From positions 379,694 through 443,693 of the forward strand of contig NZ_LT904908.1 of NCBI RefSeq assembly GCF_900199705.1: a stretch of 64,000 bases of DNA, given 5' to 3'. The DNA comes from Collinsella provencensis (GTDB lineage Bacteria > Actinomycetota > Coriobacteriia > Coriobacteriales > Coriobacteriaceae). The number at the start of each line of letters is the position of its first letter. Positions within the stretch are counted from its first letter, which is position 1. The notes under the pieces were generated by a model. That model saw nothing but the letters and a program-made list of their open reading frames with translations, was not told the DNA's origin and did not search any database. Positions 24,787-38,451 of this stretch are shown one piece after another. Both the position numbers and the translations under genes were made by a program.

Positions 24787-25350
24787 TTAGAGGCGCTGAA
24801 CGAACTCGCCGGTGCGGGTGTCGACCTTGATGCGCTCGCCCTCGTTGAGGTACATGGGAACCATGACCTGAGCACCCGTGTCGATGGTGGCAGGCTTGGT
24901 GGCACCCTGAACGGTGTTGCCCTTGGCGCCGGGAACGGTCTCGATGACCTCAGCCTCAATGAACATGGGCGGGTTCACGCCGAGCAGCTCGGTGTCGGCG
25001 TAAAGAAGCTGGCAGGTGTCGTTCTCGCGCAGCCACTTGGCGTTGTCGCCAATGAACTCCTGGGACACGGGAATCTGCTCGTAGGTCTCCATGTCCATGA
25101 AGTAGTAGTTGTCACCGTCGTTGTAGAGGTACTGCATCTCGTTGGTGAGGAGCTGCACGCTCTCGAACTTGGAACCGGCGTTGCAGGTGTTCTCGACTAC
25201 GCGGCCCGTCTTGAGGTCGCGGGTCTTGTAGCGCACGAACGCGCCGCCCTTGCCCGGCTTGACATGCTGGAACTCGACGATGGAGTAGTACTTGTCCTTG
25301 ATCTTGAGACCCATGCCGTTCTTGAAATCAGCGGTAGTGATGGAAGCCAT
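24787..25350 (-). CDS. efp: Elongation factor P
   Basis: Relieves ribosome stalling at polyproline stretches. The three beta-barrel domains are complete in 187 residues. The tip loop reads VKPGKGGAF with Lys34 at the position that is modified in many bacteria; no modification genes are nearby. A likely -10 TATACT lies upstream of the gene, but no good -35 was found. Confidence 0.96.
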   Translation of the reverse strand: MASITTADFKNGMGLKIKDKYYSIVEFQHVKPGKGGAFVRYKTRDLKTGRVVENTCNAGSKFESVQLLTNEMQYLYNDGDNYYFMDMETYEQIPVSQEFIGDNAKWLRENDTCQLLYADTELLGVNPPMFIEAEVIETVPGAKGNTVQGATKPATIDTGAQVMVPMYLNEGERIKVDTRTGEFVQRL

Positions 25351-25460: not shown

Positions 25461-27053
25461 TCATACCACATGAACTGCGGGAACATCAGACTGAATAAGA
25501 GTGCGCAACTCGAATGCACTGTGAACGCGAAGCAGTCGATACGCCTCGCGCCGTGCGACATTAACCGATCCGAGCGAATATGAAAGCTCTTGAGCAATCT
25601 CAGGGCCCGTCTTCCCTTCAAAGATGCCCCAAGCTACCTGAGATTGCAGCTCGGAAAGCCCGCGACCCACAAGATATGAAAGAACCGCATTGCGAGCATC
25701 CGTACAAAACTGAACTGAATCAACGGGTTTCATTGCCATCAAGCCATATGCGAGCAGTGAGACTGCCGTGAGCCCAAAACCGCTAAAGACAAACACGCGA
25801 GATGCCAAAAGCAATTCCCGGTCAACGACAACAATACCTGGAACAAAATGCATAACTACAAATATGTCAAACAAAGCAAGGTGCAATCCGAGCAGAAACC
25901 CTGCAGCAACTCCCCGACACAGGCAAAGAACAACACGAGGACACGCGATACGCTTGTTAAAATGAGCCGCGATCAACACGGCACTTGTACATGCGGTTAT
26001 CAGCACGCTCACCGATACAGATGTCACCAATAACAACGCAGCACACAAGACAGATAGCAAAGCAAATACGGGAACGTTGGACAGCAAGCCATCACTTATA
26101 ACTTGTCTTCTAACAAGGTAAGCACAAGCGACAATCAACGGAGTGGCAAGGGGGATTTCGAAAACCGCAGAAGGATAGAACGTCCCGGGAGTCATAGCTT
26201 CAACAAAAAACATTCCCAAAAGAACACCAAGCCCGCAAAAACGAACAAAGACAAACAGTGATTGCATTGAAGAAGCACCATGATTGTTGTGAGACTCTTC
26301 CTCTCTTGGATGACGAAGAATAAGTGTGGGCTCCAGCTCATCTCGAAGTAGTTTGCGCGCCTCAGACAGAGAAGAAACGCCCAGTTTCTTATAAGCTCGC
26401 TGCAAATAGGTCCGAATAGTCGGCGGTTGGACTTCCATGTACTCCCCCACCTGCGCCGATGTCAATCCATTCAGCGTGTATGCAAGTGCGGCAGATTCCC
26501 TCTGAGATAAACCTCGTTGTTCCAAGACCTCAATAAGCGGGGCAATCACTCGGGCTTCTTCCGAATCGGCGTCATTGGAGTCCTGGAACTTGGTTACTCC
26601 TTCTGTTTGCCCGGTACGATTGACAGAATCGAAATAAAATCGAACAACCAGGTAAATAGCCCAACCCTCAAGCGTACTCGCCATAGTACATAAACTCTGT
26701 ATTGCAAGAAGCATAGAGACATCAACGGGTTGAATGCGAAACGCGCATATCCCGCAGAGCACCAAAGCACACACACCAAAACCAATTAACGTGACGCGCT
26801 CTATTATTTTGATGATTGTCGCGTCCCTCAATACAGATGCTTTGCGCACAGGAAGCAATAGTGCACTGGTCAACAAGCCAACCAAACAAGGAGAGAGACT
26901 TAAATAAAGAGCGATAGAAATGCCGTAAAGGGGCGAGAAGAATATGAACAATTCGAAGACGCATATAAGCGTCAGCAGCACATTCAGATAGCCGAGCACC
27001 GAAACCGCCCGTGCTCCTTTGTTATGCAGGCGCTTTTCAAACATACCTATCAC
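25461..27053 (-). CDS. Membrane LuxR-type regulator with duplicated TM-HTH architecture
   Basis: The 530-residue protein has no close named relative that I recognise. The order is: four hydrophobic segments (about 17-40, 44-68, 86-106 and 112-140); a LuxR-type helix-turn-helix (178-240, with LSQRESAALAYTLNGLTSAQVG and PTIRTYLQRAYKKLGV); about six further membrane segments (264-440); and a second LuxR-like helix-turn-helix at the C-terminus (462-522, GLSELQSQVAWGIFEGKTGPEIA). Multi-pass membrane LuxR regulators are frequent in Coriobacteriia but normally end in a single HTH. The start is a GTG at 27053 or ATG at 27044. It follows a membrane-anchored protein gene at 9 nt and likely shares its transcript. 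Base composition is lower in GC than its neighbours. Confidence 0.8.
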   Translation of the reverse strand: MIGMFEKRLHNKGARAVSVLGYLNVLLTLICVFELFIFFSPLYGISIALYLSLSPCLVGLLTSALLLPVRKASVLRDATIIKIIERVTLIGFGVCALVLCGICAFRIQPVDVSMLLAIQSLCTMASTLEGWAIYLVVRFYFDSVNRTGQTEGVTKFQDSNDADSEEARVIAPLIEVLEQRGLSQRESAALAYTLNGLTSAQVGEYMEVQPPTIRTYLQRAYKKLGVSSLSEARKLLRDELEPTLILRHPREEESHNNHGASSMQSLFVFVRFCGLGVLLGMFFVEAMTPGTFYPSAVFEIPLATPLIVACAYLVRRQVISDGLLSNVPVFALLSVLCAALLLVTSVSVSVLITACTSAVLIAAHFNKRIACPRVVLCLCRGVAAGFLLGLHLALFDIFVVMHFVPGIVVVDRELLLASRVFVFSGFGLTAVSLLAYGLMAMKPVDSVQFCTDARNAVLSYLVGRGLSELQSQVAWGIFEGKTGPEIAQELSYSLGSVNVARREAYRLLRVHSAFELRTLIQSDVPAVHVV

Positions 27054-27062
27054 GTATCCGCA

Positions 27063-27578
27063 CTACCAGGAGAAATCAGCGTAGATTGCCGGCTGAGAAC
27101 TGATTTTTGGCAGGCTATAGGTTTCTCCGCCGTAGGTGATGTAGATGCGTCCTGTTGTACCCTCTTGGGTCGCATAGGCCAGATGGGCAGATCCCACCTC
27201 TTGCCCCTCTTCATCAAGCAGGGTGTAAACGTTGGGATCGATCGTTGCTTGATACGTACCTTCGCTCACCCACTGGCGCTGAGCTTCAGCATCGTAAAAC
27301 ACAAGCTGCCATTCTCCTTCATCGGTGGCAACTCCATCGTTCATGAAGGCGGCGCTGAAACACGACCCATCTGGCACTTTCGGATTCTGGTATGTTCCGC
27401 GCAGCGAATAGCCAGCCGTGGCTCCGTCAAGGATACGAGTTCGCTCCCCATACCAATGGGCAGCCAAAAGCGCAGACAGAAGGATCAGAGCGTAAAGAAC
27501 CACAACACCGATGCGCCATGAAAAAGGTACGTGACGCTTCTGCACAGAACTACTCGCCGAATCATTGATAGCGCTCAT
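27063..27578 (-). CDS. Membrane-anchored extracytoplasmic protein, unknown function
   Basis: Not recognised as a known family. It has a short basic cytoplasmic start, one hydrophobic anchor (about 22-42, IGVVVLYALILLSALLAAHWY) and an extracellular domain of about 120 residues rich in Tyr, Gly and Thr with beta-like alternation (SLRGTYQNP, WQLVFYD, EGTYQATIDPNVYTLLDE, GRIYITYGGETYSL). The pattern recalls lipocalin-like or YdhG-type small beta domains, but I cannot assign one. Located directly before the membrane LuxR gene, it may be the sensor partner or a target. Two ATGs (27590, 27578) are possible; neither spacing is ideal. Confidence 0.7.
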   Translation of the reverse strand: MSAINDSASSSVQKRHVPFSWRIGVVVLYALILLSALLAAHWYGERTRILDGATAGYSLRGTYQNPKVPDGSCFSAAFMNDGVATDEGEWQLVFYDAEAQRQWVSEGTYQATIDPNVYTLLDEEGQEVGSAHLAYATQEGTTGRIYITYGGETYSLPKISSQPAIYADFSW

Positions 27579-27617
27579 TGCCTCCCCCATCCACTTGGGA
27601 ACAACACTAACCCTATC

Positions 27618-27623: not shown

Positions 27624-27748
27624 CCCATCGAAAAGATGCCATCAGAGGTTATAAACCCACGATGACAAGCCATTCGTTCAACCTATTATATTCCTGCATT
27701 CATATTGTGTAATAATTGATAAATACTTTCCGACTAGTGAAGGAAGAC

Positions 27749-27997
27749 ATGGACGAGAAAATCAGCCCTAAGGCAATGTATATCGAGTTGGTCATTGGAG
27801 CAGCGCTATCGGCGCTCATATTCTTTGGCGCATGCAGCTTTACATCAGTGAGCCCATTGTTGCATATCTCGTTTGACCTGTGTCTGCTCTGGTATCTCGT
27901 GCAAACCGTACGACGCAGGCGCTTCGTGACCGCAGCGTTGCTTGGAACGCTCATAGTAGTCGACATCTTCTGTTATCTATCCGGCATCGCGGCGTAA
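27749..27997 (+). CDS. Small multi-pass membrane protein, unknown
   Basis: 82 residues beginning MDEKISPKAMY, with AAGGA four bases before the ATG. Three hydrophobic stretches (about 12-30, 36-54 and 62-80) are separated by short loops, one of them VRRRRF, so most of the protein is in the membrane. No family recognised. It is transcribed away from the LuxR operon, and its downstream region holds repeat element A3 on the same strand, perhaps as its 3' UTR. Confidence 0.65.
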   Translation: MDEKISPKAMYIELVIGAALSALIFFGACSFTSVSPLLHISFDLCLLWYLVQTVRRRRFVTAALLGTLIVVDIFCYLSGIAA

Positions 27998-28331: not shown

Positions 28332-29462
28332 CTAGCAGTCGATGACCACCAGGTCGTGGGTCGAGGTGGTGAAGGGCTCGAAGCCGTCCTCGGTCACCAC
28401 GCCGTAGTCCTCAAGGCGCACGCCGCCCACACCGGGCAGATACACACCGGGCTCGACCGTCACAACGGCACCAGCCTCAACGACATTGCTCTTGCGACCG
28501 AAGTTCGGCAGCTCATGGATGTCGATGCCCACGCCGTGGCCAAGGCCGTGGCCATAGTAGTCACCATAGCCTGCATCGCCGATGATCTTCTGGCTCAGAA
28601 GGTGGATATCGTGGCCGTCAACGCCCGCGTGAACCGCCTTGACACACTCCTCGTGCGTACGGCGCACCAAGTCGTAAAGCTCGCGCTGCTTCTCGCTCGG
28701 CTCGCCCAAAACGACCGTACGGGTCATGTCGGAGCGATAGTCGCGATAGCCCGCGCCGTAGTCCATGAGCACGAAGTCGCCCTTCTCGACCACGCGATCG
28801 GAGGGAATGGCATGTGGGTTGGCGGTGTTGGGGCCGCTCGCCACGATGGAGCCAAACGCCAGGGAATCGGCACCGTTGTTGAACATAAAGTTCTCGAGCT
28901 CGGAGCGAATCTCCTTCTCGGTGAGACCCGGACGGATGAACTCGCACATGTGCGCAAACGCCGCATCCGTGATGGACTGCGCATGGCGCATGAGCTCGAG
29001 CTCCTCCTCGTCCTTGATGGCACGCATGAGCTGGATATCACCATGCATGAGCGGCAAGTTGGCGCAGATGGAGCAATCCTCCAGGCCGCGCTCGATACCA
29101 CGGTAGAAGCCGATCTGCATGTCGTCCTCAACGGCGATCACGCGGCTCTTGGTGTCGCGTGCGCGCTCGGCAACCCACAGCGGCATGTCGATGACCAACA
29201 TATCGAGCTTCCAAGGATGTCCCTCGGGCAGGTTCTCCTCAAAAGTGTTGAAGTAGCGGGAGTCGGTGTGCAGATAGCACTCATCGGCAGTGATGAACGC
29301 GACATGCGGGTACTCGCCCGTGTAGTCGAACACGCCCATGGCGCCCGTCAACCAGCGAAGATTCGCCTCGTCGCGCACAACGACCGCGTCATAGCCGCGC
29401 TCGTCCATGAAGGTGCGCAGGCGGGCAATGCGACCTGCAGGTCCGGAAAGAACTTCACTCAT
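28332..29462 (-). CDS. pepP: M24 family aminopeptidase / Xaa-Pro dipeptidase
   Basis: Cytoplasmic metallopeptidase that cleaves X-Pro bonds. The N-terminal creatinase-like domain (1 to about 130) is followed by the pita-bread catalytic fold with ligands in MDYGAG...[19 protein letters not shown] and [17 protein letters not shown]. The 376-residue length is usual. It lies at the end of the operon that includes the AroB-like protein and shikimate kinase; in many Gram-positives such a peptidase precedes efp. Exact substrate not determined. Confidence 0.9.
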
Positions 29463-37665: not shown

Positions 37666-38451
37666 CTAGCCGGTCATGACCCCGTCGGGGTCGATCTTTT
37701 CCTGAATTTTCTTGAGCGTTCGACGCAGCAGACGGCTAACCTGCACTTGAGAGATTCCCAGTTTTTCAGCTATCTCGATTTGCGTCATGCCCTGAAGGAA
37801 GCGCAGCTCGATGACCTCGCGCTCACGCGGCGAGAAACTCGCGAGAGCCTCCTCGATCACGATGCGATCGTCCGTGAAGGCAAGCTCCTGATCTTCGGTG
37901 GCATAGCGATCGATGACCGACGGTGTGTCATCGTCCTCCATGCCCGAGGGCGCCTCGAGCGAAACGGAGCTGTAAGCGGAAGAGGACTCCATCGCCTCGA
38001 GCACCTCATCGACCGTTGCATCGAGATAATCGGCGATTTCTTCAATTGTAGGCGAGCGCTGCAACTGCACGGTCAGCGCGTCCGTAGCCTGATTCACCTT
38101 GGCAGAAAGCTCCTGCAAACGGCGGGGCACGCGAACGCTCCAGCCCTTGTCACGGAAGTGGCGCTTGATCTCACCCATGATGGTGGGGGTGGCAAAGGTC
38201 GTGAACTCAAGACCGCGGCTCGGATCAAAGCGATCGATGGCCTTGAGCAAACCGAGGTACCCGACTTGAATCAAGTCGTCGATGGGCTCACCGCGATTTT
38301 TGAACTTATTGGCGATAAACCGCACCAGATTGAGGTGAGACATCACGAGCTTTTCGCGGGCGTCGGTATCGCCCTCTTCCTTATAGCGTCTGAAAAGTTC
38401 GCGCGTCTTCTCCTTATCCCAAGCGGTTTTTCCCGAGGTCTTAGAGGGCAT
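37666..38451 (-). CDS. SigB/SigF-type alternative sigma factor
   Basis: Sigma-70 group 3 factor. Region 2 is seen in LVRFIANKFKNRGEPIDDLIQVGYLGLLKAIDRFD, region 3 in RDKGWSVRVPRRLQEL and region 4 with the HTH SQVQVSRLLRRTLKKIQ. The combination is that of the SigB/F/G subfamily for stress or development. It overlaps the RsbW-like gene immediately upstream, an arrangement typical of sigma factor/anti-sigma pairs. The ATG at 38451 is preferred over one at 38457. Target promoters in the window could not be recognised. Confidence 0.9.
   Translation of the reverse strand: MPSKTSGKTAWDKEKTRELFRRYKEEGDTDAREKLVMSHLNLVRFIANKFKNRGEPIDDLIQVGYLGLLKAIDRFDPSRGLEFTTFATPTIMGEIKRHFRDKGWSVRVPRRLQELSAKVNQATDALTVQLQRSPTIEEIADYLDATVDEVLEAMESSSAYSSVSLEAPSGMEDDDTPSVIDRYATEDQELAFTDDRIVIEEALASFSPREREVIELRFLQGMTQIEIAEKLGISQVQVSRLLRRTLKKIQEKIDPDGVMTG

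Follow-up and report, generated by a model that had tools for sequence, protein, structure and literature searches.

Membrane-bound LuxR regulators of Coriobacteriia have been described as proteins with a single helix-turn-helix (HTH) domain, namely, DadR, CadR, and HcdR, in the sections of Dong et al. (2022; PMC9734109) drawn on here, and a sequence-only reading of the present locus had likewise held that such proteins usually carry one C-terminal HTH. According to the same sections (PMC9734109), the HTH follows one N-terminal domain of 10 to 12 transmembrane (TM) segments, and the mechanism by which a membrane-bound LuxR reaches and reads DNA is called unclear. The protein analyzed here resembles this family in having membrane helices and a LuxR HTH on one chain, and in coming from the same bacterial class, but it differs from the form given in those sections in carrying two HTHs and in having three of its hydropathy segments ahead of the first HTH and seven behind it, instead of all in one N-terminal 10-12-TM block. 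More generally, the first HTH of the doubled proteins follows a different membrane domain or lies directly adjacent to the second, unlike in the 10-12-TM LuxRs as those sections portray them.

Both HTHs (hereafter, heads) match the NarL/FixJ/LuxR family (GerE, PF00196) by sequence and fold, but the protein stands apart from that family in that no receiver or autoinducer domain was matched in it and in that its single chain joins heads from two different lineages. One-component membrane regulators of the ToxR/CadC type combine a cytoplasmic DNA-binding part, a TM segment, and an outside domain, and they have one winged HTH. They are most like those doubled proteins in which adjacent N- and C-type heads are followed by a TM segment and PASTA domains, the difference being the LuxR HTH pair of the latter.

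Here, we examine this protein within a window (the whole stretch of DNA analyzed, 64,000 nucleotides of Collinsella provencensis). Our main reading, to which we assign a probability of roughly 0.55, is that the gene encodes a one-component membrane regulator with two different LuxR heads per chain, a compact member of an old Coriobacteriia class with the order N-type then C-type, in which a membrane-sensed signal would position the heads and thereby switch neighboring genes.

Results

One open frame carries two LuxR heads, each preceded by membrane segments

The sequence-only reading had placed at 25461-27053 a 530-residue protein with two LuxR-like HTHs, each behind its own membrane region. 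These coordinates and this length are correct, and the coding strand is the minus strand (Table 1); on the plus strand, stops occur throughout the interval. Pfam GerE matched the protein in two stretches with 58.1 bits overall, the better stretch being residues 182-232. When the 1.74-Mb genome was scanned with GerE, the first HTH scored 43.3 bits and the second 23.3 bits alone or 23.6 bits with its neighbors in the frame, the curated cut-off being 23.5 bits; among the 12 matches at E < 0.001, only these two share one gene. HMMs built from the organism's own LuxR HTHs gave 68 bits (residues 181-234) and 49 bits (residues 465-518). Elsewhere in the window, a further GerE match (31.3 bits; 37702-37839, minus strand) lies in an ORF of 263 aa for which hydropathy predicts no TM segments.

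An AlphaFold model, based on an alignment of 7 sequences only, reached a pLDDT of about 84-94 across both HTHs and mostly stayed below 50 in the membrane parts, which are unreliable. Hydropathy analysis placed three segments ahead of the first HTH and seven between the two HTHs; the corresponding numbers of long helices in the low-confidence parts of the model were four and five. Both HTHs thus score by HMM and fold in the model, and the hydropathy profile bears out a membrane region ahead of each. With the whole low-confidence model as query, the top Foldseek matches in the PDB were FixJ, StyR, DegU, TraR, DosR, and NarL, all short of E < 0.001, and phmmer against the PDB returned nothing at E 0.01. 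The Pfam search of the protein found HTH-type families only and neither a receiver nor an autoinducer domain, which speaks against a NarL-type two-component response regulator. A sigma-70 factor was also considered and rejected: Sigma70_r4_2 scored above its cut-off (36.9 bits) but overlaps a higher-scoring GerE match, and region 2 is absent.

Table 1. Positions of the doubled regulator, its domains, and its neighbors in the window
Feature	Positions	Strand	Remarks
Doubled membrane LuxR regulator, 530 aa, GTG start	25461..27053	-	Order TM - N-type HTH - TM - C-type HTH
First (N-type) GerE/LuxR HTH, residues 182-232	26358..26510	-	43.3 bits; best Pfam stretch; N-type signature in alignment; pLDDT about 84-93
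Second (C-type) GerE/LuxR HTH, residues 466-516	25506..25658	-	23.3 bits; local HMM 49 bits; C-type signature in alignment; pLDDT about 89-94
First membrane region, residues about 13-153	26595..27017	-	3 hydropathy segments; 4 helices in low-confidence model
Second membrane region, residues about 260-440	25734..26276	-	7 hydropathy segments; 5 helices in low-confidence model
175-aa protein, one hydrophobic segment + downstream domain	27063..27590	-	End 9 bp before regulator start
Promoter-like match upstream of the two-gene unit	27685..27713	-	10/12; 3 in region versus 2.9 expected by chance, weak
Presumed efp	24787..25350	-	Downstream flank of insertion site, conserved
Xaa-Pro peptidase-like gene, presumed pepQ	28332..29462	-	Upstream flank of insertion site

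Doubled LuxR proteins across Coriobacteriia

Matches were obtained in 37 of the 65 family genomes searched. HMM typing revealed doubled ORFs in at least 26 of the 65, in all six genera (counting an incomplete ORF that runs into a contig end in G027), which is a lower bound because typing covered only the hit regions and most long-frame matches. A short tandem form is found in two further family genomes (L033 and L040). A scan of public genomes located the doubled form also in an Atopobiaceae MAG, in Adlercreutzia murintestinalis, and in another Coriobacteriia MAG, and the TM-HTH-TM-HTH plan is present in Atopobiaceae and Eggerthellaceae as well. Class-wide, 156 of 296 genomes matched the profile at E 1e-10, many of the weaker matches being of one head only, like ordinary single LuxRs; follow-up of 40 regions, chosen from the strongest and the C-type matches, found doubled ORFs in 36. 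A search with the C-type profile across the phylum (396 genomes) placed all matches of at least 64 bits in Coriobacteriia, the lower ones merging with ordinary LuxRs. Judged from this distribution of sequences, the doubled LuxR is a widespread class in Coriobacteriia and not a one-off fusion. A literature search, by title or start of abstract, returned no paper on membrane proteins that combine two LuxR HTHs, doubled or paired, and the two-headed class is apparently undescribed.

N-type and C-type heads form separate lineages

In a tree of 170 HTH sequences (78 N, 78 C, and 14 single; bootstrap not fully settled), 70 of the 78 C heads form one clade (100/98), and the N heads, the singles, and the other eight C heads lie on the opposite side; an earlier tree of 94 HTHs had grouped 32 of 38 C heads (90/94). 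The proteins with a C-HTH outside the main clade (L033, L037/L086, L040, L061, L072, L073, L074, and L080) were left out of the pairing and spacing counts, and these eight may be separate doublings. The window protein (copy L010) has both heads, and its C-HTH is not among the eight, making it a member of the N/C class. Each type has its own signature, namely, ...STVRTYL.RAY.KLGV for N heads, GLSDLQ...YS.GTVN.ARR..YR.LGVHS for C heads, and ...GTVKTHV..IY.KLGV for single LuxRs; most C-type HTHs have VN.AR instead of the canonical LuxR recognition-helix K..H, and the recognition-helix positions are conserved among the C-type HTHs of the class.

N and C heads are 24.7% identical within the same protein and 25.7% identical when an N head is compared with the C heads of other proteins; since own and foreign pairs are equally similar, the pairing is old. 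N and C distances correlate across the main-clade proteins (Mantel r 0.40, p 0.0005, 57 non-redundant proteins). By the tree, the N-type and C-type HTHs represent two old lineages distinct from each other.

When 107 non-redundant LuxR ORFs were typed, 67 were NC and a few were mixed. The C profile was best for the last HTH in 74 non-redundant ORFs, in 72 of which another HTH precedes it (lone in 2/74), a proportion that is partly by construction, as the typing profiles derive from the 38 proteins in the earlier tree, odd ones excluded; its independent part is the 40 class-wide regions. Lone C-type pieces occur at L162 and L168, and lone N-type proteins exist too (e.g., L034, L036, and L165). 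L077 has an N-type HTH in mid-protein and, in another frame near its end, a weak C-like match (34 bits). As a separate observation, the proteins encoded at L034, L036, L038, and L049 are small (144-193 aa) and combine one N-type-like HTH with one TM; the 11 kb surrounding L034 (L201) yielded no C-type partner.

Across 12 related pairs, both heads usually had a lower dN/dS than the remaining parts of the chain (e.g., 0.16/0.05 versus 0.34 and 0.12/0.14 versus 0.48). The exceptions were several pairs without changes or with undefined or few-change head values, as well as one saturated pair; in the tandem-head pair L158/L160, dN/dS was 0.41-0.51 throughout (heads, 0.41-0.46). These ratios show both heads to be under purifying selection in most relatives tested.

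An operon and a candidate operator beside relatives

Permease and ATPase genes follow 23 of 76 doubled ORFs under a strict rule. The conserved operon, present at L056, L060, L066, and other loci, has the order regulator, secreted protein, anchored protein, two permeases, ABC ATPase, and anchored protein. The secreted protein matches DUF2712 weakly, the first and last anchored proteins match DUF5027 and DUF5028 weakly, and the ATPase is lantibiotic-protection-like (155 bits, below the cut-off of 309.75). The operon is possibly a secreted peptide system. On another point, small secreted proteins adjoining doubled regulators share a domain (1.7e-8; L050:4963-5544, L050:9657-10262, and L140:3571-4278), which also matches faintly (8e-4) the outside part of the tandem-head protein L149; by these sequence matches, the two may constitute a Rosetta-stone link.

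Between regulator and operon, we observed a dyad, TGTAxyz...x'y'z'TACA, that spans 41-43 bp, shows compensating changes, and is in our view a candidate operator. The word TACA[GT]AC is present on the sense strand of this interval in 19 of 27 operon-type loci (a hand list, wider than the 23 of the strict rule), or 13 of 20 without near-copies, versus a single one of the 49 remaining doubled loci and 1.1% of random windows (20,000 drawn). The relaxed element was present in 17 non-redundant loci, namely, 15 operon-type loci together with L065 and L164; in 14 of them, the best upstream arm was found at a span of 41-43 bp among spans of 36-48 tested. Agreement of xyz across the arms was 33/51, whereas 5000 permutations averaged 24.2 and never exceeded 32, and a full-arm test gave p 0.007. 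As four turns of DNA are about 42 bp, both arms would face one side. The first signal, TACA-N9-CCTG, overlaps the last codons of the regulator gene; we kept this element only because it is out of frame in L131, follows the stop codon in L069/L070, and has its second arm in non-coding DNA. The dyad could also be an RNA hairpin; an Rfam scan of the dyad region returned no family in six loci.

Across 16 loci, covariation with the middle base of the dyad is strongest at column 40 of the N head (MI 1.25, p 0.0005) and at columns 36 and 37 of the C head; p-values per column are uncorrected for multiple testing, and phylogeny is partly controlled. With overall identity regressed out, C33, N40, and C36 occupy ranks 1-3 of 118 columns. 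The best columns lie in or beside the N and C recognition helices, and we take columns 36, 37, and 40 to be NarL K188, V189, and K192. Operator bases predicted from head residues and judged by eye at kept-out loci fit L132_11723, contradict L132_4841, and are mixed for L131, making the prediction only suggestive.

The sequences upstream of the regulators yielded no conserved word, the best dyad count there being 6, equal to shuffles. A dyad search across the window gave a best score of 15 versus shuffle maxima of 15-16, and the exact pattern predicted from the window protein's residues has zero matches in the window genome. A profile search for the operon's anchored-protein family likewise found none in the window genome, with matches in G041 and G235, and genes of the ABC/secreted-protein operon are absent next to the window regulator. 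The operator evidence therefore comes from relatives only.

A more specific proposal, which we hold tentatively and at less than even odds, is that this undescribed Coriobacteriia class reads a long asymmetric site jointly with its N-then-C heads. In the operon subgroup, two chains would span the approximately four-turn dyad beside the stop codon of their own gene and so tether DNA to the membrane; N-head column 40 and C-head columns 33/36 would set the specificity, and the same head pair would be used on polytopic sensors or on single-TM sensors with PASTA domains. A competing explanation, rather unlikely in our estimate, is that only one head binds DNA, namely, the N-type head, which in the window protein is nearer to the canonical profile, and that the C-type head pairs with another HTH or protein. 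The window C-HTH does sit at the GerE cut-off, and the absence of K..H from most C-type recognition helices would be in keeping with that explanation; however, the C-type recognition-helix positions are conserved and are among the columns that covary best with operator bases, and dN/dS of the C-HTH is low in most pairs.

The regulator at the pepQ-efp site

The window regulator is paired with the 175-aa anchored protein between genes that we take to be pepQ and efp. Among the loci compared, a homologue of the 175-aa protein was found in G032 only, where it adjoins the syntenic regulator (L057; 66.9 bits, 9e-19). Separately, a 93-aa ORF (window 27716-27997, plus strand) diverges from the 175-aa gene and has a weak homologue in the same place in G030 (28%, 5e-8). 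At 24 of the 30 Collinsella efp loci examined (of 43), pepQ is within 925 bp of efp and an HTH is absent; five (the window, G041, G032, G018, and G030) have a C-type HTH directly upstream of efp, and one has neither a nearby pepQ nor an HTH. In G030 (L199), the interval holds a decayed remnant of the syntenic doubled regulator, with a 43-residue C-head match in a broken frame, indicating that the regulator is dispensable in that genome.

Such decay raises the question of whether the window copy is itself a shrinking relic of a full-length regulator, having lost membrane helices and its target operon and being on its way out. Regulators at this site measure 862 aa (L055) and 907 aa (L050) versus 530 aa in the window and 468 aa in G032, and this explanation would also account for the missing operon family and for the piece left in G030. 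We nevertheless consider it improbable, given the 530-codon open frame in which both HTHs score and fold, and given compact forms of 438-511 aa that are conserved at a fixed chromosomal site, beside a gene that is presumably rplT, in a separate group of genomes (Atopobiaceae, as inferred for the family name).

Chain architectures and the origin of the membrane halves

In 62 of the 70 main-clade proteins, the heads are 151-485 residues apart, the interval consisting mostly of membrane segments; in the other eight (L140, L144, L149, L151, L152, L153, L158, and L160), they are 11-19 residues apart, with one TM and then an outside part behind them. PASTA matched three times in L158 (8.4e-23), and several of the adjacent-head proteins resemble it by eye, L140 and L149 excepted. 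Such a chain would make a cell-wall-sensing transcription factor, a design that did not turn up in the papers searched.

The sequence-only reading had suggested a fusion or tandem duplication that yields a built-in dimer, and a simple tandem duplication of one TM-HTH gene would indeed give a symmetric covalent dimer. The domain order repeats twice, and the N and C HTHs are homologous (98.7% local). The membrane halves tell otherwise: compared in 26 long relatives and 13 single LuxRs, a set that excludes the window protein, local homology between the two halves is not detectable (8%; a forced global comparison gives 29%). The second half resembles the membrane part of the 12-TM-type single LuxRs (86.7% global, 58.1% local; two paralogous permeases used as a yardstick give 90%), as against 3.3% global and 1.4% local for the first half, whose relatives went undetected among the profile sets tested. 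The 6-TM single LuxRs encoded in these genomes gained no support as a source of the first half (0.04-0.05%). Together with heads that are separate old lineages and within one protein are no more alike than unrelated pairings, these values make a simple tandem duplication very improbable and leave a recent fusion unsupported. The protein may still be a built-in dimer, but its heads would then form an asymmetric pair and not two copies of one head. Finally, an artefactual joining of two genes by a sequencing or assembly error, which the sequence-only reading had named as a possible undoing, is excluded by recurrence of the same order in many genomes, from genera of three families.

Discussion

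We return to the one-component regulator with two different heads. The membrane domains would act as a sensor, and what they sense may be presented to them by the small anchored protein encoded in the regulator's own two-gene unit. Sensing would position the N and C heads, such that one chain, or a dimer of chains, could grip an extended site close to the regulator's gene, and binding of the heads would switch transcription of neighboring genes. In the window, the nearest candidate target would be the regulator's own two-gene unit, comprising the 175-aa protein and the regulator.

Taken alone, the regulator in the window is a modest member of the class, compact and perhaps dispensable. The doubled class is a new variant among membrane LuxR regulators, which in gut Coriobacteriia govern how drugs and diet compounds are metabolized, and it is linked to an uncharacterized secreted-protein/ABC operon. 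With two heads kept in cis and a candidate operator that covaries with head residues, it makes the question of how a membrane-bound LuxR reads DNA testable.
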